Of a DNA stretch of 64,000 nt, positions 9,555 through 19,377 are shown one piece after another. The stretch covers positions 496,001-560,000 of the forward strand of contig AP017991.1 of the NCBI GenBank assembly GCA_003609755.1, in the 5' to 3' direction. Each line of letters opens with the position of its first letter. Position 1 is the first letter of the stretch. Source of the stretch: Planktothrix agardhii NIES-204. GTDB lineage: Bacteria; Cyanobacteriota; Cyanobacteriia; Cyanobacteriales; Microcoleaceae. The translations under genes and the position numbers were made by a program. Under the pieces are notes generated by a model. That model ran no database searches. It was given only the letters and a program-made list of their open reading frames with translations, and was not told the DNA's origin.

Positions 9555-10157
9555 TTATATCTGATCCTGTAATATTTGTTCGGCTGTTAGTTCCAGATTA
9601 GGAAAAGTTTTTGATTGAATTTGATCACCTCCAGTAAACTCCAAGCTATCATACCATCCATCAACTAATGTCAGAATTGTGACTTGATTTTCCAAAGGAT
9701 CAACTATCCAATATTCAGAAATTTCCAAAACACTATATTCCGCTTTTTTGGCGCGGTAATCCGTTCGTTTAGTAGACTCACTCACCACTTCAACAATTAA
9801 TAAAGGTACGGGTTGATTCATTGTAATCACCGCTTCTTTATTTTGTAATTCTCGCCATTGTTCTAGTGGTAAAATCACAACATCAGGAATTCTAACTGTA
9901 TCCCATCTTCCCCCACGGGGAGATTGAATACCCAGAACACTCTGAATAGCAGTCCAATTTGAACCCATACGCTCGATTTCTGCATCAAAAGTGCGCTCTA
10001 AAAATTTGATAATTGCACCGTGTTTTCCTGTTCCTAAACTCATATTAATTAGTTCTCCGTTAACCAGTTCATAGCCGGTATCTGTACCATCGTTGTAATT
10101 GAGATATTCAGCTAGGTTTAGGGGTTTTGTTGTTAATTCAGACTTTACAGTTACCAT
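9555..10157 (-). CDS. Uma2-family (DUF820) putative nuclease
   Basis: A 200-residue member of the large cyanobacterial Uma2 family, which has a PD-(D/E)XK fold and unknown biological role. Visible landmarks are [48 protein letters not shown] and [20 protein letters not shown] and K residues are in the expected order, so it may be an active nuclease. It is divergent from the 1044-aa gene with only about 50 bases between starts, so a shared control region is possible. Two more Uma2 genes and a Uma2 fragment occur in the window. Confidence 0.85.
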
Positions 10158-10207
10158 AAAAGATTGTAGTATGGATATGACTCATACAATTATGACATAT
10201 TTTGACA

Positions 10208-13200
10208 ATGACTGATCAACATATTCTGCAAGAAACCTTCGATTCCCTTCCCAAATTAGATTATATTCCCTTATTGGATACTATTCTAAAAGAACTTAAA
10301 ACAACAACTACCCCTATTTTTCAACTTTCTCCCGATCAAAATCGTCTCCTAATTCGTGCTTATGATTTCGCCTATAAAATAGCAACTGAAAATAAAACCC
10401 TCAATCCCTTAACCCAAACCACTGGAATTCGCGCCGCCACCGTTAATTTTGAAGATACTGCTAAATTCTGTGATAAAATTAGACAAATTCAACAGTTATT
10501 AAAAGAAAAATTAAATCTAGCTTGTCAACCCGAATCTCCTGAAAATATCCTAGTTAAGATTTGTAGCGATTTGGGAGAATTTAATCAGGAAAAAGATTCC
10601 CTTCCCTTCAACTATGATTTTAGCAAACAACCCCCATTTACCTCCAAACGCCTAACCCTTGAAAATAGTTTTACCCCCAATCGTAGCAGTGGAAGTCATG
10701 CAAATATTAAAGCACATCATTTTAATATTAGATTTACAGGATTAGCAGATTTTCAAGACAATTTATGCGCATATATTCGACATCATATTAATACTATTAC
10801 CGATGAAAATTCATCAGAAAGACAGGATCTCAATGGGTTATTTAATGAACTATCAGATCGACCCGACTCTAGTTTAAATAACCTCAGAAGCATTATCGAT
10901 CAAGAGGCGTTACCTCGTCTTTTACGCGATCTTAAAATCGACTATTTAGAGTATCTCAAAAAAGGATGGAAAAAAACTCATTCTAATGCAAATTCTCCTG
11001 ACTTAACGCTGTTACAAACCTTAATTAATCGCTTTAAAATAGTGATTGAATATGTCAATGATACCAATTTAGATAACGCCCATTATGACATTACTTATTT
11101 AGGAGAAACCGTTAACCTCAGAACCGTATTTTCTCAATCCGATGCGTTTGATAGTTTACCCATTATTCCTGATTATCAAGGAGTAATTGGGGAAAGTTAT
11201 AACCGCAATAGTAATAATTTCAAAGAATTTAATTTAGGAATCCGTTTAAAGTTGAATGGTTCCGTTAGTGCTTATAATGAAAAATCTTCCTTAGATTATC
11301 ATATCGCAGAAATCGACCCTACCAGTCCCCGACATCGAGAATATTTACAAAATTCTAACAAAGCAAAAAGTTTTAAAACTAGAGTTTTAAAAAACGTTTG
11401 TTTGTATTATCTGATTTTTGCGATTGATGAAACAGGAAACACACCCGACGAAGAATATAACCCTATTGTTCAATTTGAACAGGAAGTTTTAAGAGTTTTT
11501 CAGTCCAATCAAACCAACCCAGAAGCAATTACTCAACTTTTATCAACCATCAAAAATAAAATTGCTGATTCTGCTTGGGAAGTCAATCGCAAAGTCAATC
11601 GTTTAAAATCATTTTTGCAAGATTTTTTAATCCAAAAAACAGTTTTAAATTATGAACAGAAAACAGTTAAATTGCGTTTACACAAGGATATTCTTTACCA
11701 AAAACCGATTGATATTATTAATAGTCAAAACTTTTTTAAAATCAACCTAGATGATGATGATACCAGTCGTTCACGCTCATCAGCAAGAGAAGCATTAGCT
11801 TATTTAAAAGTCGGAGAAAATCAACTAAGTCAAGACTCTTTAGCATCTTTAGAAGTAACTTTTACCTTTGATGATGTTCGTTATTTTACCGTGGAGGAAG
11901 AACAGAAATTTGCTCTCAGGTATAATATTGATGGGATTAAAGCACTACCTGTGGTGTTTTATCCCATCAAAAACTTAAATGATGAAGAAATAAAAAAAAC
12001 AGGTAAAAAAATCAAAGCTCATCCTCTATATGAGAAGCATTTTAAAGAGAAAAAACTAATAGCAATTTATTATAATATTACCAAGCTGAGAACAACTATA
12101 TTTAAAGATAATCAATCTCCTGAAGCAAGAATTTATCGCCAAGTCTTTAGTTTATTAACCTATTTGTGTATTAGCGTTTGTCAAAATCCCCTCAAAGACC
12201 AAAATTTGTTTATTCCTATCTTACGATTTCATGTACAAAGTACCATTGATGATAGCGAAGATGAGAAATATTTAAGGACTTTAACTCGATCTTTAGCACA
12301 TATTTTAAGACGAGATTGTTTAGCAAATGATCAGGGATTAAATACTAAGAATAGGGAGGATAAAGGTTTTAACTATCGAGTTAGAAATGCTTTATCTTCC
12401 CTCTATTCCCTGCTTCCCAAACGGTTTAAATTTAATAGTGATTTTAAACCACAATTAGATAAATTAGCAATTGTTGTTGTTTCCAGTTGGGTGAGTGATG
12501 CGGTTTGGAATGAACCGGATAAAAACCAACGGATTTCTAATATTTACGGTGAGATTGTTTTAATTGAAAGAGATCCCGATAAATCCGATATCATTCAAAT
12601 CAATAACTTTAAAACCTTTTCTAGTAACGAAAAACATGAACAATTGTATCAACAACCAACCATAATTCGAGATGAAATCACTAAATTATATGAAGAAAAA
12701 GGATATCGACACTTTTTATATGTTGCGAAAGCACCATACAGTAGACGTTTAGGATTAATTCGCTCAGAATCTGACCCAGATTCCCTATTTTTTATGTCGG
12801 AAACGGTGATTAAATACCTCAAAGATGGAAAACCAGATCTCAAACTGTATCCGATTTTTATGGATACCTATCCTGCTTTGAATTTAAAAACTAAAAATCA
12901 AGAATCTTTCTATATTCCCGATGTAGAAGAATTGAAAAAACTCTCTAATGATCCCAGTCAAAGGACTAAAGTATTTTTAAATTTGTTCACTGGAGTTACA
13001 GTTGATCAAAACCGAACCTTTTTTAATAGTGTAGTTTGCTATAGCACCCTGTTAAATATGTATGATGATGAACATACAAGAGATGTGATTTCAGGATTAT
13101 TAGATGATTCTTCTCCTCTCCAAAAAACGATTTTAAACTATATTCTCTTGTTTCATTTTTCCCGTTATGAAAAAAGCTATAATAAAAATACTAATATCGT

Positions 13201-13342
13201 CTTAAAGTTAAATCCTTATAGTAAACTCATCGGAGATCAAGGATTAGGAACACTTTCAAACTTTACTTACTCCCCCAAAAATATTAATTTTAATACTTTA
13301 GCATTTTTAACCGTTGTTAGAAGTGCGATCTATGATTCATAA
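10208..13342 (+). CDS. Large protein of unknown function, first gene of candidate defence operon
   Basis: I do not recognise this 1044-residue protein. The frame is open from a TTG at 10202, but the ATG at 10208 is a better start. It has no signal peptide or clear membrane segment and is rich in charged and Asn/Lys residues. The only patterned part is about 750-905. There a strand AIVVVSSWVSD is followed by a strand GEIVLIERD, a helix ending EEKGYRHFLYVAKAP, and FLNLFTGVTVDQNRTFFN. That strand-helix order loosely recalls RNase H/PIWI folds, but no catalytic DEDD set is visible, so this is speculation. The helicase-like gene starts 25 bases downstream and must be its partner. Confidence 0.75.
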   Translation: MTDQHILQETFDSLPKLDYIPLLDTILKELKTTTTPIFQLSPDQNRLLIRAYDFAYKIATENKTLNPLTQTTGIRAATVNFEDTAKFCDKIRQIQQLLKEKLNLACQPESPENILVKICSDLGEFNQEKDSLPFNYDFSKQPPFTSKRLTLENSFTPNRSSGSHANIKAHHFNIRFTGLADFQDNLCAYIRHHINTITDENSSERQDLNGLFNELSDRPDSSLNNLRSIIDQEALPRLLRDLKIDYLEYLKKGWKKTHSNANSPDLTLLQTLINRFKIVIEYVNDTNLDNAHYDITYLGETVNLRTVFSQSDAFDSLPIIPDYQGVIGESYNRNSNNFKEFNLGIRLKLNGSVSAYNEKSSLDYHIAEIDPTSPRHREYLQNSNKAKSFKTRVLKNVCLYYLIFAIDETGNTPDEEYNPIVQFEQEVLRVFQSNQTNPEAITQLLSTIKNKIADSAWEVNRKVNRLKSFLQDFLIQKTVLNYEQKTVKLRLHKDILYQKPIDIINSQNFFKINLDDDDTSRSRSSAREALAYLKVGENQLSQDSLASLEVTFTFDDVRYFTVEEEQKFALRYNIDGIKALPVVFYPIKNLNDEEIKKTGKKIKAHPLYEKHFKEKKLIAIYYNITKLRTTIFKDNQSPEARIYRQVFSLLTYLCISVCQNPLKDQNLFIPILRFHVQSTIDDSEDEKYLRTLTRSLAHILRRDCLANDQGLNTKNREDKGFNYRVRNALSSLYSLLPKRFKFNSDFKPQLDKLAIVVVSSWVSDAVWNEPDKNQRISNIYGEIVLIERDPDKSDIIQINNFKTFSSNEKHEQLYQQPTIIRDEITKLYEEKGYRHFLYVAKAPYSRRLGLIRSESDPDSLFFMSETVIKYLKDGKPDLKLYPIFMDTYPALNLKTKNQESFYIPDVEELKKLSNDPSQRTKVFLNLFTGVTVDQNRTFFNSVVCYSTLLNMYDDEHTRDVISGLLDDSSPLQKTILNYILLFHFSRYEKSYNKNTNIVLKLNPYSKLIGDQGLGTLSNFTYSPKNINFNTLAFLTVVRSAIYDS

Positions 13343-13367
13343 ACTATTAATAATTGAGGAATAATCA

Positions 13368-16300
13368 ATGAAATCTTCATTGGGAATACAATTAGGTCGA
13401 GTTTTTGAAATTGGGTTTAATTTAGGAATTTTAACCTATTTTAAACAAAGACAATTTAAACAATCCTATCAGGATATTTATGTAACTCCCCTAAGTCAGA
13501 TTTATCTCTATAAAATTAGTGAAAAATTAGCGAATGAAAATCATTATTTTGATGGGTCAGATCGCAAAACGATTTTGAATTGGGTGAAGTTATTTTTGCA
13601 AAAAGGTTGGACTTCTGGGGTGACTTTTATTCGAGAATATAGGGAAGCAACGGCATGGAAATATGATCGAGAAATTGAGATTGTCTATTTTCAATGCGAT
13701 TTTTATAATGATAACTGTTTTAATCTGATCGAAAAAACTGAAAGCGACGCTTATCGAGAGGTTTTAGAAACTCAAGGGTTTAATAATGTTGATATTATTC
13801 ACTATAAACGCACAGGAGAGTTTTTAAGAGCAGATACGTTATTATTGACTCGCTATCGTGATCAATATCGAATTTTAGTGGTAGATTTATCAACTTTTAC
13901 TACTTCTGCGATCTATGCGATTCAGGATATTAAAAATATTGATACTCTGAAAAATTTATTAAAAAAAGAGTTGAATTATATTCGCTCAAAATCTCAATTT
14001 TGTGGGTTAGAAATCGATCTGGGAGAGAAAAATAACTATCAGGTTTTTTCTCAAAAGTTATACCAATATTTTTCTGCTTTTTCGACCAAAGATAAAGAAG
14101 GGGTAAAAGTTATTCAATCTTGTAGTTATGCTTGGAGTTTTTATGATTTTTTGTTACAAAGTCGCCATTTAAAATCCAGTGATATCGTAAAATTTAACTG
14201 TTTTGGATATAGCGATCGCCTGATTAATGGAATTTCTCTGAATTTAGAATCATCATTAAAGATTTTAAAAACTTGTTATGATATCTACCGGGGTAAAGTA
14301 GAAGTCAATATTAAAGAAAACCGCGAAAAGGTTTTGAATGTGATCAAAAGTAATGGGTCAAAAAGTTTTAAAAATTCTGGTGATTTTGTTAGAAAAATTA
14401 TTGAATCACAACCTAATCAAATTACCTCTATTGCTCATCAAGAAGTCTTAAAAGTTGGGGAATCAGACTTTTTTAATACTGCTGATAATATTCCTGAAAC
14501 CTTACAGCGATCGCTTAATTTAACCCAACCAAACTTATCTCTAAGAGATGCTCATGCTGAGTTAATTCAGCGATCGCTCTCCGACCCCAAAATCCCCTAT
14601 TTATTCCTAACTGGAAACCCAGGAATTGGTAAAACCACAGCTATTGCTAACTATATTTTACACCATTTAGAAGTAGGAACACTCTTATTTTATGTCAGTC
14701 CTCGGATTCAAGTCAATCGGGATATTATCGAAAAATTTTGCGATCCTGTTACCCATCAATTAAAAGATCACATTATTTGTTTAAATACCAATGCGATGAT
14801 TTTAAATGATCAAAAAGGCGGTTGTGCGGTTGAATCTTATTATAATCTATTTTCCGAAGATGTACAAATCGGAAAAGTTAAGTTTTTAAATGCTAGTTTA
14901 GAGCGAGATTATCAGTATAAATCCTCTCAACGATTTGGGCGAAATTCTGAAGAAATTTTAGAAGTAAAACCGCAAAATCAAGCGGGAGTTTTAGCGAGTT
15001 TATCGGAAGCAATTCATACTTGTTTTATTCATCCCGATCAATTTCCTAATAATATTATTGCGACCGCATCAATTCAAGCGTTAAAAGAAACAAGATCAGG
15101 AAATACCTTAAAACATTTAAAACGAATTTTTAGCAGTGTTTATAATTCTTCTACCCGTCGTGTCATTCCTGAAAAAGTTAAACTGCTATCGCAACGGTTG
15201 AAGAATATTTTTATTATGATTGATGAAATTACCGGATCATCAGAAGGGGTTGCTTTTTTACATGGAATTAAGATTTTTATCGAAGAATATGACTTATTAA
15301 ATCCTGATTATGGGTTTAATATTAAAGTGATTACTGCGGATGCTTCTTTAACCTTAAAAGATGTGGTTGAAAGTCATTTATCCGATCAAAACGTCCAAGC
15401 AGATAAAATTTTTGTTCGACAGGTTTCCTCAACCCAGCAACAGTGTTTATGGGTGGATCAGTTTAAATTTTTAAATCAATACCCAGCAACTTTAATTAAT
15501 GCAAATTCCTATCCCGCTTCTCAATTAACAATAGATTATCAAGTCTTGATTCACTCAGTCAATGACCAAGAAAATAACGAAGATAATTCAACCTTAATTA
15601 ATCAAATGATCGATATCATTAAAAGCGATATTTTGCAACGGTTAAATCAAAATCAAGGTCAAATTATTGTTTATATTCAAAATAAGGATAAACTCAAAAA
15701 ACTGATTGATCTAATTGCGAAGCAACTCCCTAAGTTTGAGGTAAAAGAAGATTATTTAGAAATTCATGCGAGTCTTTCTGAGTATGAAATCACCAATATT
15801 CAAAAATATAAGGATAGCGTTAATGTCATTTTTATGACTGCTTCCGCATCTCGCGGTTTATCCTTCCCAAATACCAGGTATATTTTAGTAGAAATTCCAG
15901 GGTTTCAAATCGAACAAAATTTAATGGAAATTATTCAAGTTATCTATAGAGGTCGCGGGGGAAGTTTAGATCAAGGGGAAAAATTTATTAAGTTTTATCT
16001 ATCGGATAAAGCAATCTATTTTACCCCTAAAGTTGATCAAGATAATCACCCTTTATCTCCAGCACAATCTCAGGAATTAGCCAAAATTTCTTTACAAGAA
16101 TCCTGTTTAAGTGCGTTGAATATTCTGATTATTTTAAAAGCATCAATTATGACTCGAATTGTAGGATCGGGTCAAATTGGATTTCAAAGTTATGTGATGA
16201 TTCCAATTGGGGGAAAGTCAATTAAACAAGGAGGAGATAGTTTTTTAGGGTCAATGGTAACTCTATATCAGGAAGTCCAAAAAGAGTCTAAAAAGCGTCG

Positions 16301-17039
16301 TCAAGATCAACGCTTAAAGGAGATTTCCCAACGGTTATTAAATTTATTGTCCGCTCAAAAAATAGAAATTTATCGTCCTCCTGTCACCTCTAAAAATCAA
16401 CAAGAAGTATCTTATTTATCTTTGGGATGGGAAATTTTATCTAAATTGGAAAAAAGTTTAGATCAATTTTTGGATCTTCCCCCATTAGAAAAAACCTATG
16501 TGCGAGGAAGTTTATTGATTATTCCGTTATCGGAAAAAACGGTTAGGGAAATTAATTATATTGATTTATCTCGGATTTTTGCTTTAGAAAATAGCGATTT
16601 TCTTCAACAACTCTGGGGTTTGGCAAAGGAAAATTACCCCAAACAAATTAAGACACTGGTTGCTTCTGCTTTGGAATTAGTCTACAGTTTAGGGGAGGTT
16701 AAAGAGCGATCACAACAAGTAATACAAACTTCTAAAAGTTGCGATCGCTATTATGCTTTTCCCATTCAAACTTTTTTAACTTTTCCCGAATTAGAGGAAT
16801 ATTTTTTAAGTAATTTGCAGTTACCTCCATCCTTTCAGGATATTTTAAGACGCTTAGTTTATGCTCTCGCTTCTGCGGATAATATTCTACCTGCTGATGG
16901 GAATTATAAAAATCTTCCCTATGTGGTTTTTAATACTAACTCGATGGATAAACTTGGTAAAAATTTGTTTAATGAAAATCAACTTTTTCACTCTAAGGAA
17001 ATGAATATTTTAAACTTAATTTTGTCTCAAAGTGATTGA
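13368..17039 (+). CDS. SF2 helicase-like protein with possible nuclease-like N-terminus
   Basis: A 1223-residue protein. Helicase motifs in order: Walker A GNPGIGKTT (416-424), Ia-like LFYVSPRIQVN (440-450), Walker B IFIMIDEITG (Asp619, Glu620), motif III-like ITADASL (655-661), motif IV-like GQIIVYIQN (764-772), motif V TASASRGLSFP (824-834) and motif VI-like QVIYRGRG (857-864). This is the two-RecA-lobe pattern of SF2 translocases. Residues 150-176 (EFLRADTLLL, then ILVVDLST) resemble the D...(D/E)xK hairpin of PD-(D/E)XK nucleases, but Ser replaces Lys, so it may be inactive or a false match. The 360 C-terminal residues are unassigned. It lies 25 bases after the 1044-aa gene, likely co-transcribed and acting with it on nucleic acid. 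Confidence 0.8.
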   Translation: MKSSLGIQLGRVFEIGFNLGILTYFKQRQFKQSYQDIYVTPLSQIYLYKISEKLANENHYFDGSDRKTILNWVKLFLQKGWTSGVTFIREYREATAWKYDREIEIVYFQCDFYNDNCFNLIEKTESDAYREVLETQGFNNVDIIHYKRTGEFLRADTLLLTRYRDQYRILVVDLSTFTTSAIYAIQDIKNIDTLKNLLKKELNYIRSKSQFCGLEIDLGEKNNYQVFSQKLYQYFSAFSTKDKEGVKVIQSCSYAWSFYDFLLQSRHLKSSDIVKFNCFGYSDRLINGISLNLESSLKILKTCYDIYRGKVEVNIKENREKVLNVIKSNGSKSFKNSGDFVRKIIESQPNQITSIAHQEVLKVGESDFFNTADNIPETLQRSLNLTQPNLSLRDAHAELIQRSLSDPKIPYLFLTGNPGIGKTTAIANYILHHLEVGTLLFYVSPRIQVNRDIIEKFCDPVTHQLKDHIICLNTNAMILNDQKGGCAVESYYNLFSEDVQIGKVKFLNASLERDYQYKSSQRFGRNSEEILEVKPQNQAGVLASLSEAIHTCFIHPDQFPNNIIATASIQALKETRSGNTLKHLKRIFSSVYNSSTRRVIPEKVKLLSQRLKNIFIMIDEITGSSEGVAFLHGIKIFIEEYDLLNPDYGFNIKVITADASLTLKDVVESHLSDQNVQADKIFVRQVSSTQQQCLWVDQFKFLNQYPATLINANSYPASQLTIDYQVLIHSVNDQENNEDNSTLINQMIDIIKSDILQRLNQNQGQIIVYIQNKDKLKKLIDLIAKQLPKFEVKEDYLEIHASLSEYEITNIQKYKDSVNVIFMTASASRGLSFPNTRYILVEIPGFQIEQNLMEIIQVIYRGRGGSLDQGEKFIKFYLSDKAIYFTPKVDQDNHPLSPAQSQELAKISLQESCLSALNILIILKASIMTRIVGSGQIGFQSYVMIPIGGKSIKQGGDSFLGSMVTLYQEVQKESKKRRQDQRLKEISQRLLNLLSAQKIEIYRPPVTSKNQQEVSYLSLGWEILSKLEKSLDQFLDLPPLEKTYVRGSLLIIPLSEKTVREINYIDLSRIFALENSDFLQQLWGLAKENYPKQIKTLVASALELVYSLGEVKERSQQVIQTSKSCDRYYAFPIQTFLTFPELEEYFLSNLQLPPSFQDILRRLVYALASADNILPADGNYKNLPYVVFNTNSMDKLGKNLFNENQLFHSKEMNILNLILSQSD

Positions 17040-17064
17040 CAATCCCAAAGACTTATGATATAAT
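17036..17064 (+). promoter_or_regulatory. Perfect-consensus sigma-70 promoter for the ATPase gene
   Basis: TTGACA (17036-17041), 17 bases, TATAAT (17059-17064). The -35 box overlaps the TGA stop of the helicase-like gene. Expected transcription start is about 17071, giving a leader of about 75 bases before the ATG at 17146, which has a GGAAG ribosome site. Confidence 0.8.
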
Positions 17065-17145
17065 GATTGAAGACTTGACTTTCTCTAAAAAATGGTAAAA
17101 ATCAATTTTTCACAAACCTTTTAAATCCGAAATAGGAAGATAACC

Positions 17146-18327
17146 ATGATTCAAGAGATTACCATTAAAAACTTTAAATCCATTGATCAATTGAAACTTA
17201 AACTGGGAAGGGTAACGGTTTTGATTGGTGAAAATGGTTGTGGAAAAACGAATATTTTGGAAGCGATCGCGTTAAGTTCAGCCGCAGCTAGTGATAAACT
17301 CGATCATGAGTTTTTAGCATCCAGAGGAATTAGAATAACGGAACCTCAATTCATGCGATCCGCTTTTAATTCTGATGATCTTAACCAAGATTCTGATGAT
17401 CTTAACCAAGAAATTGAAACATCTTTCCAGTTTAAAAATGATAAGATTATTACCTATAATTTACAACATGATGGTAAACCCTACTCTGGTTGGGTTAGTA
17501 AGATTTCGGGAATTTCAGAGGAAATCTCTGAAATCAAGATATATGATACGTTATTTTATCGAGGTTTTGAAAACCAGGGTATTTTTTCAGGTCTATCAGA
17601 AGCAGATCATGTTCAACAAACCATAAAACGGCATATTATGGAAAATTCTGATAATTTAACTTTAAAAAAATTTTTGATTTTTTCTCCAGAGAACTCAAGT
17701 TTACGAATTTTTAAAGAAGAAGGTCAAATTCAACCTTTGGGAATTCATGGAGAAGGATTATTTAAACTATTAACGGTTTTAAATGCAGAAAAAAATCAAG
17801 AAAAAATTCAAGAGATAAAAGAAAAAATGCAGCTTATAGATTGGTTTAAAGATTTCAGTATTCCTGATGAATTCTCTCTGAATCAAAAAACCCTTAAAAT
17901 TGCTGATCGATACCTTATTTCACGAAAACAAAAATACTTTGATCAAAATAGTTCTAATGAAGGATTTTTATTTTTACTATTCTATTTTTGTCTGTTTATT
18001 AGTGATAATACCCCTAAATTTTTTGCGGTAGATAATATTGATGTTTCCCTAAACCCCAGATTGGGACGTAGATTAGTTCAAGAATTAGTACAGTTAGCAC
18101 AAAAATATGATCGACAGGTTATTTTTACCACTCATAATCCTGGTATTTTAGATGGATTAGATTTGGAGGATGATCAACAAAGACTTTTTGTAATTTACCG
18201 TAATCAATTAGGTTATACTAAAGCAAGAAGGATTTTACCTCCAAAACCTCTGGAGGGACAGGAACCTGTGAGATTATCAGAAGCATTTTTACGCGGTTAT
18301 ATTGGGGGACTACCTAAAAATTTTTAG
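17146..18327 (+). CDS. RecF/ABC-type AAA ATPase of candidate defence operon
   Basis: A 393-residue ATPase. Walker A is GENGCGKTN (28-36) after the RecF-like start IKNFKSIDQLKLKLG. The signature-like SSNEGFLFLLF is at 269-279, Walker B FFAVDNID at 292-299 and the switch His in TTHNPGILDGL (328-338). Asn297 stands where many relatives have the catalytic Glu, though DNID occurs in some AAA_21-type proteins. The middle region (40-260) is short compared with SMC proteins and has no obvious coiled coil. A 21-base tandem duplication (17370-17411) gives two copies of SDDLNQ. It has its own strong promoter inside the end of the helicase-like gene. Proteins of this kind are often the sensor or effector ATPase in anti-phage systems; that role is inference. 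Confidence 0.82.
   Translation: MIQEITIKNFKSIDQLKLKLGRVTVLIGENGCGKTNILEAIALSSAAASDKLDHEFLASRGIRITEPQFMRSAFNSDDLNQDSDDLNQEIETSFQFKNDKIITYNLQHDGKPYSGWVSKISGISEEISEIKIYDTLFYRGFENQGIFSGLSEADHVQQTIKRHIMENSDNLTLKKFLIFSPENSSLRIFKEEGQIQPLGIHGEGLFKLLTVLNAEKNQEKIQEIKEKMQLIDWFKDFSIPDEFSLNQKTLKIADRYLISRKQKYFDQNSSNEGFLFLLFYFCLFISDNTPKFFAVDNIDVSLNPRLGRRLVQELVQLAQKYDRQVIFTTHNPGILDGLDLEDDQQRLFVIYRNQLGYTKARRILPPKPLEGQEPVRLSEAFLRGYIGGLPKNF
17370..17411 (+). repeat. 21-bp exact tandem duplication inside the ATPase gene
   Basis: Unit TTCTGATGATCTTAACCAAG plus A occurs twice back to back with no difference. The frame is kept, duplicating seven residues in a poorly conserved part of the protein. This suggests recent slippage. 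Confidence 0.85.
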
Positions 18328-18371
18328 TTATGACTACTTTTACTTTTGGATTAATTACTGAAGGACTCCAA

Positions 18372-18767
18372 CTAAGTTTGGGGCTTATTCTTATTAACTA
18401 AAAACTCGCGTAACCGAATTAAATTGAGAGTTTGACCTAAATTCAAAGGTAATATAGAAATCCCTTCTAAACGAGATTGTATCCAACCTTCTCCCCAATA
18501 CCACTCATGAAATCCATCAATTCCCTGACTTAATAATAGTCTTAAACAATTAGGTTGGCTGACATCAACATAATGTTGAATTGTCACCGGGCCAAGGGAA
18601 GTGGTAAAGGTTAATCCTGGTTGGAATTGTTCAGGAAGTCCGGGGTTAAACTGTTGGGGCCATAACCATTTTTGCAACTGACTCGGACGTAATAAACTAT
18701 CTCGAATATCAGCTTCTTTGGCGTTGACTTCAATACGGAGGCTACTGTGTTGAAACGTACCAAGCAT
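18372..18767 (-). CDS. SRPBCC/START-like conserved cyanobacterial protein
   Basis: A 131-residue cytoplasmic protein. The pattern LRPSQLQKWLWPQQF near the N-terminus, LTFTTSLGPVTIQHYVDVSQPNCLRLLL in the middle and a C-terminal helix NLIRLREFLVNK fit the helix-grip (SRPBCC, polyketide cyclase/START-like) fold that binds hydrophobic ligands. The assignment is by fold impression; no catalytic residues are known. It is convergent with the ATPase gene (44 bases between stops), so it is probably not part of that operon. Upstream lies the toxin-antitoxin pair on the same strand. Confidence 0.6.
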   Translation of the reverse strand: MLGTFQHSSLRIEVNAKEADIRDSLLRPSQLQKWLWPQQFNPGLPEQFQPGLTFTTSLGPVTIQHYVDVSQPNCLRLLLSQGIDGFHEWYWGEGWIQSRLEGISILPLNLGQTLNLIRLREFLVNKNKPQT

Positions 18768-18846: not shown

Positions 18847-19104
18847 TTAGTTCCTATACACTTCCCGTCTATGACCTACTTCAACAATTAGAACAATGAG
18901 AAGGTCATCTTCAATTTGATAAATGATTCTATAATCGCCTACTCGTAAACGTAACAATCCTTTTCTCCCTTGTAAGGCTTTTATCCCAAAAGGTCTAGGA
19001 TTAATTGATAAAGCGTCAATTTTGGGTTGAAGCTGTTCTTGAACAAGTTGAGGCAAAGCCTTGAATTGACGCTGGGCTTTTTTAGAAAACTGTATTCTGT
19101 ACAT
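18847..19104 (-). CDS. RelE/ParE-family toxin
   Basis: An 85-residue protein beginning MYRIQFSKKAQRQFKALP, with NPRPFGIKALQGRKGLLRLRVGDYRIIYQI and a C-terminal VGHRREVYR. This is the classic RelE/ParE fold, with the basic and aromatic residues that cut mRNA on the ribosome in RelE relatives. The ATG at 19104 gives the usual N-terminus; a GTG at 19110 would add MS and directly abut the antitoxin stop. The gene is downstream of its antitoxin and very likely translated from the same mRNA. Whether it is a RelE-like RNase or ParE-like gyrase poison cannot be told. Confidence 0.85.
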   Translation of the reverse strand: MYRIQFSKKAQRQFKALPQLVQEQLQPKIDALSINPRPFGIKALQGRKGLLRLRVGDYRIIYQIEDDLLIVLIVEVGHRREVYRN

Positions 19105-19110
19105 CGACAC

Positions 19111-19377
19111 TTAATCCAGTCCGGCTTTAATATCTTCCCAAGAAACGGTTCCTTCTGTTTCTGCTGATAATAGTCCCTCTAATCCATCAATTGTATCTAA
19201 CAAGTCTTCCAATTTTTCCACTTCAATCACAATCAATTGCTGGGAACTAATTTTTTCTAAAAGTTCAGGAACAGAAACTTCTAAACTTTCTGCAACAGAA
19301 TGAACTCCTAACCAAACTTCATCATTGAGAATTAACGGATCACAACTGGGAAAGGAATTACTAATTTTTTGACTCAT
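19111..19377 (-). CDS. Antitoxin partner of the RelE-type toxin
   Basis: An 88-residue acidic protein directly upstream of the toxin with no gap. The middle (VAESLEVSVPELLEKI) looks like a short helix-turn-helix or ribbon-like segment. The acidic C-terminus (LEDLLDTIDGLEGLLSAE, then WEDIKAGLD) is the type of tail that wraps a RelE toxin. I cannot match it to Phd, RelB or ParD with confidence; the call rests on position, size and composition. Such antitoxins usually repress their own promoter, which would lie just above 19377. Confidence 0.65.
   Translation of the reverse strand: MSQKISNSFPSCDPLILNDEVWLGVHSVAESLEVSVPELLEKISSQQLIVIEVEKLEDLLDTIDGLEGLLSAETEGTVSWEDIKAGLD

Follow-up and report, generated by a model that had tools for sequence, protein, structure and literature searches.

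The DdmDE system of V. cholerae acts on plasmids and consists of an SF2 helicase and a partner that was first considered to lack discernible domains and was later described as a DNA-guided, inactive long pAgo (PMC12409362, PMC12904381). In the ApsAB family, which is described as extending into cyanobacteria, the ApsB proteins carry the motif Y[X]3K[X]nQG[X]nK, and changing the lysine of its Y-x3-K part abolished activity (Zongo 2024, PMC11096173). The pPIWI-RE triad is reported to have the gene order REase, DinG and PIWI-RE (Burroughs 2013, PMC3702460).

The window, i.e. the whole stretch of 64,000 nt analysed here (Planktothrix agardhii NIES-204, AP017991.1 of assembly GCA_003609755.1, 496,001-560,000, forward strand), contains two genes, A and B, that resemble these systems in part. 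As in DdmDE, an SF2 helicase is paired with a partner lacking discernible domains, but DdmD has its helicase at the N-terminus and a PD-(D/E)XK domain at the C-terminus (PMC12409362, PMC12904381). The likeness to ApsAB lies in two linked genes, one for an SF2 helicase and one for a protein that has no sequence match but possesses a QG and a later lysine; however, the partner CDS is placed downstream of apsA (PMC11096173), whereas A precedes B in all 42 two-gene loci. ApsA is described as having SAT 291 residues after DELH, a motif VI reading QAVGRVER and a C-terminal D...DxK nuclease (PMC11096173); B has DEIT, ADAS ~40 residues on, QVIYRGRG and a (D/E)xS near the N-terminus. The ApsB motif is shared by A only in part, since Y-x3-K was found at the aligned places in one of 47 proteins, though QG and the later lysine were kept. 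A search of viral contigs for ApsA relatives with the published motif returned 21 stretches, none of which was ApsA by length and context.

Likewise, pPIWI-RE loci encode a ~1000-aa protein together with a ~1100-aa SF2 helicase, and both kinds of locus are found in cyanobacteria, where the pPIWI-RE gene sizes and order fitted eight of ten loci inspected (outer genes judged by size and order). Assignment of A-B to this group was rejected, as PF13032 was absent from the window genome and the A members, no REase-size gene lies ahead of A, and hhalign revealed no significant profile similarity to PIWI-RE proteins (A, 0.1%; B, 10.8%). In the literature searched, no paper was found on the A-B pair. 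The features of the locus are as follows:

9555..10157, minus strand: Uma2-family gene, divergent neighbour (PF05685, E 4.8e-33; PADLOC PDC-S03)
10208 (ATG)..13342, plus strand: gene A, 1044-aa orphan protein (ORF; alternative TTG start at 10202)
12170..13339, plus strand: residues 655-1044 of A, the best conserved part; candidate MID-PIWI-like region, from motif order only
12332..12337, plus strand: Q709-G710 of A (among the 47 aligned proteins of the family, Q is kept in 46 and G in all)
13368..17039, plus strand: gene B, helicase of the SF2 type, 1223 aa, extended at the N-terminus (ORF, PF00271)
13833..13892, plus strand: D156...D173-x-S175 of B, N-terminal motif AD...(D/E)xS (45/45 B proteins)
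14607..14639, plus strand: motif I (Walker A) of B, LTGNPGIGKTT, residues 414-424 (family alignment)
15222..15233, plus strand: motif II (Walker B) of B, DEIT, residues 619-622 (family alignment)
15936..15959, plus strand: motif VI of B, QVIYRGRG, residues 857-864 (family alignment)
17036..17064, plus strand: site resembling a promoter, between B and C (TTGACA and TATAAT spaced by 17 bases, with TG)
17146..18327, plus strand: gene C, ATPase of 393 aa (AAA/RecF-like; PADLOC PDC-M31A) in a module of its own (ORF and profile matches)
18330..18368, plus strand: what is left of gene D, which accompanies C in relatives; the similarity stops after 12-13 codons (comparison with relatives)
18372..18767, minus strand: 131-aa ORF between C and the toxin, no family matches
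18847..19110, minus strand: RelE/ParE toxin (TIGR02385 above cut-off)
19111..19377, minus strand: putative antitoxin, 88 aa, toxin partner (no family match above cut-off)

The first-pass annotation had described two giant genes separated by 25 bases, an ATPase gene starting 106 bases later, and a Uma2 gene and a RelE-type toxin-antitoxin pair as flanks. The ORF coordinates agree with this layout, and the profile matches with the flanks, except that the 88-aa partner of the toxin lacks a family match. No CRISPR-like arrays or known RNA families were seen.

Genes A and B form one conserved unit

In 42 of 46 loci examined, B lies behind A in the same orientation. Both genes are full length in 38 loci, with a gap of at most 300 bases in 34 of these, and the genes overlap in seven loci. 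As tens of genomes carry homologues of A and B in this order, the pairing exceeds chance. Pairwise identities of A and B were correlated (r=0.97; 406 non-independent pairs from 29 loci), and dN/dS values between the window copy and its relatives were 0.15-0.20 for A and 0.20-0.23 for B. A and B thus represent a single gene unit, conserved in the order A then B, diverging in step and under purifying selection. The earlier proposal that the large protein and the helicase act as one nucleic-acid complex is upheld insofar as the two genes travel together.

Gene B encodes an SF2 helicase, as had been suggested, with Walker A and B motifs, a Helicase_C domain (PF00271, 2.7e-6 in the window copy, above the cut-off) and an arginine-rich motif VI. 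PF00271 was detected at E 0.1 or better in all 30 B members of set A2; in set A7, all 11 proteins gave it with E values of up to 5 (best 1.5e-7). Key residues of motifs I, Ia, II, V and VI are fixed in 36/36 aligned proteins, and a K...K..QxxxY motif is present in 45/45. Against the PDB, the B profile matched other helicases only, and weakly. The N-terminal ~400 aa constitute an uncharacterised part with a fixed acidic motif, AD...(D/E)xS, the order of which is reminiscent of PD-(D/E)XK, with S possibly replacing K.

Pfam and profile scans of the window copy and family members placed B in no recognised nuclease family, an observation that counts against action on invading DNA. A weak DpnII-MboI hint was obtained in two of 30 B members (best E 0.014). 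A pP_pnuc_1 hint (E 0.1 in one of 11 type II proteins) was treated as noise: it was unseen in ten N-terminal 450-aa segments, taken from one Acinetobacter protein and from the type II proteins other than L073 and L160 (nine of eleven), and is therefore located in L160 or outside the N-terminal 450 aa. A search of 292 genomes with PF18165 gave zero matches over the cut-off and six under it.

Searches of Pfam, NCBIfam, PADLOC, PHROGs and PDB with protein A gave nothing that rose above noise, and, in line with the first-pass annotation, neither A nor B matched any named system. The A profiles also gave zero matches to the solved structures in the PDB copy searched with A and B, which presumably included those of DdmDE. 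The A family represents a group of ~1000-residue, helicase-linked proteins without a match to any model in Pfam, NCBIfam, PADLOC or PHROGs. In the alignment of 47 members, N727 is present in 35, position 694 is K, R or Q in 33, and the median distance between the QG and the C-terminus is 333 aa.

Gene C and its truncated partner

The assignment of C as a RecF/ABC ATPase was borne out by matches to AAA_21, AAA_15 and SMC_N. PADLOC scans returned PDC-M31A (1.9e-75, residues 1-391) and AriA (3.8e-27). In three relatives (L031, L033 and L035), C is followed by an open ORF, D; the D protein of L031, the only one scanned, matched PDC-M31B (1.5e-13), with DUF4276 under the cut-off. D is truncated to 12-13 codons in the window, and the same break is observed in L034. 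C thus corresponds to PDC-M31A over its full length, but an intact PDC-M31B partner is missing in the window and in L034. The C-D pair would constitute an ATPase-DUF4276 module that is loosely PARIS-like, a likeness that, among A, B and C, concerns C only; no paper on DUF4276 paired with an ATPase was found in the library searched.

The site between B and C was the only 12-of-12 site of a promoter scan in which the total number of sites was at chance level. Its hexamers are identical in L031 and L035 and altered by one base in L033 and in L034, and it may represent a promoter of C's own. C probably belongs to a separate ATPase-DUF4276 module whose partner has been lost here, and is probably non-functional in this strain.

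Distribution and surroundings

Relatives of A were identified (E 1e-5) in 43 of the 386 genomes sampled across the phylum, or about one in nine. Distant, type II versions of A occur in other cyanobacteria; of the 11 genomes with type II, four carry type I as well. A was additionally found on plasmids of cyanobacteria (six records, each typed as conjugative), while distant relatives are carried by four proteobacterial plasmid records (plasmids of Cupriavidus, Acinetobacter and Acetobacter). Several A-B copies are split, truncated or interrupted, and others are deleted. In the congener G157, the ORFs beside rlmN include none for A, B or Uma2, and a 37%-identical A is encoded at another place. 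The pair thus shows accessory behaviour in its patchy presence, plasmid carriage and broken copies.

The proposal of an accessory island fits the low GC of the locus, as A, B and C have the lowest GC of the 45 ORFs in the window, but less well the many copies elsewhere that adjoin core-looking genes (by eye). Thirteen A-B loci sit downstream of purS-purQ, pheT-like and bcp-like genes lie near five or six others, and several type II neighbours resemble core genes (all names by eye). At the purQ site of 14 further genomes, six carry the same ~425-aa gene behind purQ; as these genomes were picked for lacking type I A, the absence of A there is uninformative. Among 107 of the 121 ORFs surrounding plasmid-borne and type II copies, strong PADLOC matches included REase_I, SngC, BrxH and a type IV REase, which favours a role against invaders but comes from ORFs pooled across loci and without a control set. 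In viral contigs, three queries gave no match and a fourth matched one 117-residue stretch; a single query of phages gave no match. The core-looking surroundings and the virtual absence from the viral and phage queries tried speak against a system directed at invaders.

Possible functions of the A-B pair

The A-B pair probably represents an undescribed two-part accessory system with nucleic acids as its substrate and invading DNA as the likeliest target. In such a defence role, A would recognise the target and B would serve as the motor, loaded at A-marked sites and unwinding or translocating DNA, while the N-terminal part of B may be a weak cutting or a degenerate DNA-binding domain. Cleavage would be left to host or neighbouring nucleases, such as the HNH gene directly behind B in one Acinetobacter copy.

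The shared purS-purQ site and the core-looking neighbours fit stable inheritance as well as they fit defence and, together with the purifying selection, would suit a chromosomal maintenance pair for repair, replication restart or R-loop removal in some cyanobacterial lineages. This we regard as unlikely, given the 343 genomes without a match, the plasmid copies, the split, truncated or deleted copies, the type II genomes that also carry type I, and the lowest GC in the window. The earlier proposal that all three genes make up a single defence system, in which C acts as the sensor or effector, agrees with the adjacency of A, B and C on one strand, with their low GC and with their joint occurrence in Planktothrix-group loci. 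The neighbourhood comparison kept A and B together and separated C, which was found in six of the 46 loci, all of the Planktothrix-group copy (six of seven, the seventh contig stopping before C), and in none of the 39 others, including L041 of G157 from the window's own genus. Given also the promoter-like site of C, its different rates (dN/dS 0.32-0.64) and its better-fitting partner D, the trio is highly improbable.

A special case of the preferred reading, namely a two-part system acting on invading DNA, is that A is an Argonaute-like protein, strongly diverged and without catalytic activity, with an N-terminal part followed by MID and PIWI at ~655-1044; we hold this to be possible, albeit tentatively. 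The order of features in A is suggestive: a strand (LFIPILRLH), a helix (K/R/Q 694), Q709-G710, N727, K752 and a strand (LAIIVVSS), a register that was first set by eye and is thus open to bias. The distance of the QG from the C-terminus is close to the length of a PIWI domain, and the ApsB-type motif is partly shared (QG in 46/47, K752 in 43/47). An automatic, non-significant alignment of type II A with cyanobacterial pAgos spans a MID-like strand to the first PIWI strand. Against this, the score of 22.4 for type II A with pAgo was reached by 13/300 shuffles and 4/57 decoys, and in hhalign residues 655-1044 (39 sequences) scored 17.0 with pAgo (null 15.8±2.3, 40 shuffles) and 14.4 with PIWI-RE (null 14.9±2.1), whereas the positive control, PIWI-RE versus pAgo, reached 44.0 (null 15.0±2.5). 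With 47 sequences, scores were 13.4 and 19.9 (nulls 15.0±2.4 and 15.1±2.1; maxima 20.8 and 22.1), and type II A scored 18.8 with PIWI-RE (null 15.7±2.0); neither the whole A family nor type II gained significant profile support. Y690 and K694 co-occur at the aligned Y-x3-K places in 1/47 members, any Y-x3-K within 35 residues before the QG in 4/47, and neither PF02171 nor PF13032 matched A-family members. An Argonaute-like A might, with similar reservation, bind a guide and recruit helicase B as in DdmE-DdmD and ApsB-ApsA. A shade more doubtful is the full proposal that A is a new inactive Argonaute-like branch beyond profile reach and A-B a further guide-directed helicase lineage beside DdmDE and ApsAB, clearing plasmids or phages mainly in filamentous cyanobacteria, with deep types I and II. 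If A is Argonaute-like, guide-directed systems would reach past what sequence profiles detect.

If the A-B pair restricts plasmids or phages, it would help to explain gene-transfer barriers in filamentous cyanobacteria, and it is small enough for testing in laboratory strains. A conserved third gene was sought and rejected: no neighbour gene was common to more than three type II loci of cyanobacteria, and candidates for a third gene differ by plasmid: the HNH gene lies behind B in Acinetobacter L099, a DUF4011 gene is present in Acinetobacter L100, and in Acetobacter L101 a 348-aa ORF behind B resembles the C-terminal part of B.

Composition of the locus and conservation of its genes

ORF calling agreed with the positions, spacing and flanks of the three genes (A, B and C) that the first-pass annotation had proposed to form one system:

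9555..10157 (-), divergent Uma2 gene
10208..13342 (+), gene A, encoding a 1044-aa protein
13368..17039 (+), gene B, encoding a 1223-aa SF2 helicase
17146..18327 (+), gene C, encoding a 393-aa ATPase
18330..18368, remnant of gene D, the partner of C in relatives

The genome comprises 5 contigs (5.08 Mb), and the GC contents of A, B and C (0.316-0.321) are the three lowest among the 45 window ORFs of at least 150 aa (median 0.389). The A protein of the window matched nothing above noise in Pfam, PADLOC, NCBIfam and PHROGs, and A had no match in the PDB. Single Pfam scans likewise gave nothing above noise for the members of alignments A1 (34, i.e. 32 of type I, the main family including the window copy, and two of type II, a distant type in other cyanobacteria) and A6 (11, type II). 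The nearest named relatives of the window belong to Planktothrix, with A of P. rubescens PCC7821 being 97% identical, and a Planktothrix host is therefore most probable. B matched Helicase_C above cut-off and AAA/DEAD models more weakly. C was identified as an AAA_21/AAA_15 ATPase (Pfam); in PADLOC it gave a full-length match to PDC-M31A (1.9e-75) and a match to AriA of PARIS (3.8e-27). A perfect 21-base tandem duplication is present inside C (17369-17410).

Relatives of A were found in 43 of 386 genomes of the phylum, including the window's own; among these, G129 carries both types, G093 type II alone and G051 no more than a decayed fragment. Gene order was compared across 46 loci (the window, 40 fetched regions and five loci of named records; G039, G207, G262 and G305 were left out), two of which, L034 and L036, apparently represent the same place in one genome. 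In 42 loci, B came after A on the same strand; the other four were L035, where an in-frame deletion has fused the two genes, L069, where the contig ends, L052, with an A but no B in the vicinity, and L075, which gave no ORF match. Both genes were full length in 38 loci, 34 of which displayed a gap of at most 300 bases (median A-B gap 25; seven overlapping). Across 406 non-independent pairs from 29 loci, the pairwise identities of A correlated with those of B (r = 0.97), and dN/dS values were 0.15-0.20 for A and 0.20-0.23 for B.

The proposed membership of C was not supported, as C was present in six of the 46 loci, all from the Planktothrix group, and missing from all 39 loci outside it, including the same-genus locus L041. 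In L031, L033 and L035, C is immediately followed by a 223-227-aa gene (D), whose L031 product matched PDC-M31B (1.5e-13) and, under cut-off, DUF4276. In the window and L034, D is cut short after 12-13 codons, with the break at an identical position, and the sequence that follows is unrelated. Of the sigma-70-like sites scanned for, the only one matching at 12 of 12 positions, which also has a TG extension, lies in the B-C gap, the overall number of sites being at chance level (38 versus 37.6 expected). L031 and L035 retain both hexamers of this site intact, and L033 and L034 each show a single base change. Values of dN/dS were 0.32-0.64 for C, 0.63-0.92 for D and 0.25-0.76 for Uma2. A-B and C-D are thus two distinct units, and C is an orphan in the window.

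Several copies are broken or rearranged. In a Planktothrix-group genome (L035:9995-13345, also L003), a natural in-frame deletion has fused A residues 1-606 to B residues 716-1223, with ~3.5 kb missing relative to the window and a junction overlap of ~4 bases. A 118-base fragment resembling A (residues 794-832), which takes in the end of D and the sequence beyond it (L031:18749-18866), would be either the remnant of a second copy or a rearrangement. A and B lie 2 kb apart at L043:7695-9685 and 7.5 kb apart at L053:3456-10924, possibly through insertions; one ORF per gap was compared with A and B and exhibited no similarity. At the type II locus L153:9703-10737, an intact B' (A' and B' denoting type II and plasmid copies) is preceded by an A' reduced to its C-terminal 344 residues, which begin near the conserved QG; this A' is either a truncated gene or a minimal form.

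Conserved residues and the nature of the A-B pair

Key residues of helicase motifs I, Ia, II, V and VI of B were fixed in 36 of 36 sequences. Its first ~400 residues carry AD...(D/E)xS and K...K..Q-x3-Y in all 45 sequences, an order that we take to recall RecB-type PD-(D/E)XK nucleases with serine in place of the usual lysine; no database match accompanies this likeness. The best-kept positions of A lie within its last 400 residues (Q709, G710, K752, D764, G832, Y881, Y945, H983, L1001, P1003 and A1032). Within SSRxSD, 39 of 47 sequences have the arginine; at this position (residue 761, 12488-12490) the window copy and all four Planktothrix-group relatives in alignment A5 carry tryptophan.

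The order of these conserved positions resembles that of the MID and PIWI domains of Argonautes, and QG is shared with ApsB, the partner of helicase ApsA in an anti-plasmid pair, where it belongs to a needed motif (PMC11096173). An Argonaute-like A is nevertheless taken to be the less likely reading, because the profile tests and the near absence of one motif half do not carry this resemblance. Profile comparison of the whole family with pAgo and PIWI-RE remained at shuffle level although a control pair was detected, and although type II aligns with pAgo in the expected register, its score of 22.4 was equalled or exceeded in 13 of 300 shuffles and by 4 of 57 decoys. Furthermore, the other half of that ApsB motif, Y-x3-K, whose lysine was shown to be needed (PMC11096173), is kept in only 1 of 47 A-family sequences. 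Since the tests fail to carry the Argonaute likeness, A-B is read as probably a recognition protein plus motor against invading DNA, in which A would perform recognition and B would act as the motor on that DNA.

The features tested give no assignment of A-B to ApsAB or DdmDE, although its mode of working may be similar to theirs. A helicase with a large partner is a known kind of system; the A family is not a known one. PIWI-RE membership was rejected, the A profile scoring at shuffle level. PIWI-RE itself (PF13032; L088-L096) scored above cut-off in 11 of the 386 genomes, and 8 of 10 fetched loci agree in gene sizes and order with the published REase-DinG-PIWI-RE triad.

Distribution and genomic location

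Six cyanobacterial plasmid records, all of conjugative type, encode A, one being only 27% identical. B of the outlier locus L073 retrieved two Acinetobacter plasmid records and those of a Cupriavidus and an Acetobacter plasmid, each with a large A-related ORF before the B relative. In profile comparison with type I A, the C-terminal part gave 97.4% for type II, 96.4% for Acinetobacter and 95.6% for Acetobacter; at full length, Cupriavidus and the outliers reached 97.3-98.2%, Acinetobacter 83.6% and the one Acetobacter protein only 2.5%. Cupriavidus B matched 51 of 377 genomes, 11 of them with type II (44-47% identical to the query); four of these 11 (G129, G199, G127 and G048) also carry type I. 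A' precedes B' in 11 of 12 loci (nine type II loci plus L072, L073 and L098), and G308 encodes a 1063-aa B without an adjoining A. Viral contigs yielded no match to the A alignment, the B alignment or an Acinetobacter B, and one 117-residue stretch with Cupriavidus B; phage records, searched solely with Acinetobacter B, yielded none.

The pair is located 3' of purS-purQ in 13 loci, while another five or six have it in the vicinity of pheT-, YciI- and bcp-like genes (genes named by eye). In 14 genomes picked as lacking type I A, other genes follow purQ, including one of ~425 aa in six. The congener G157 has no A, B or Uma2 beside rlmN and a 37%-identical A elsewhere. The purS-purQ position and the state of G157 thus indicate that the pair undergoes gain and loss, yet can long remain at one place.

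The 107 ORFs taken from around the type II and plasmid copies, pooled over loci and without a control set, included strong matches to defence models (type I REase, SngC, BrxH, type IV REase and HEC-01); several other type II neighbours resemble core genes. On an Acinetobacter plasmid (L099:13008-14021), an HNH endonuclease gene lies directly 3' of A'-B', followed by a WYL-domain gene.
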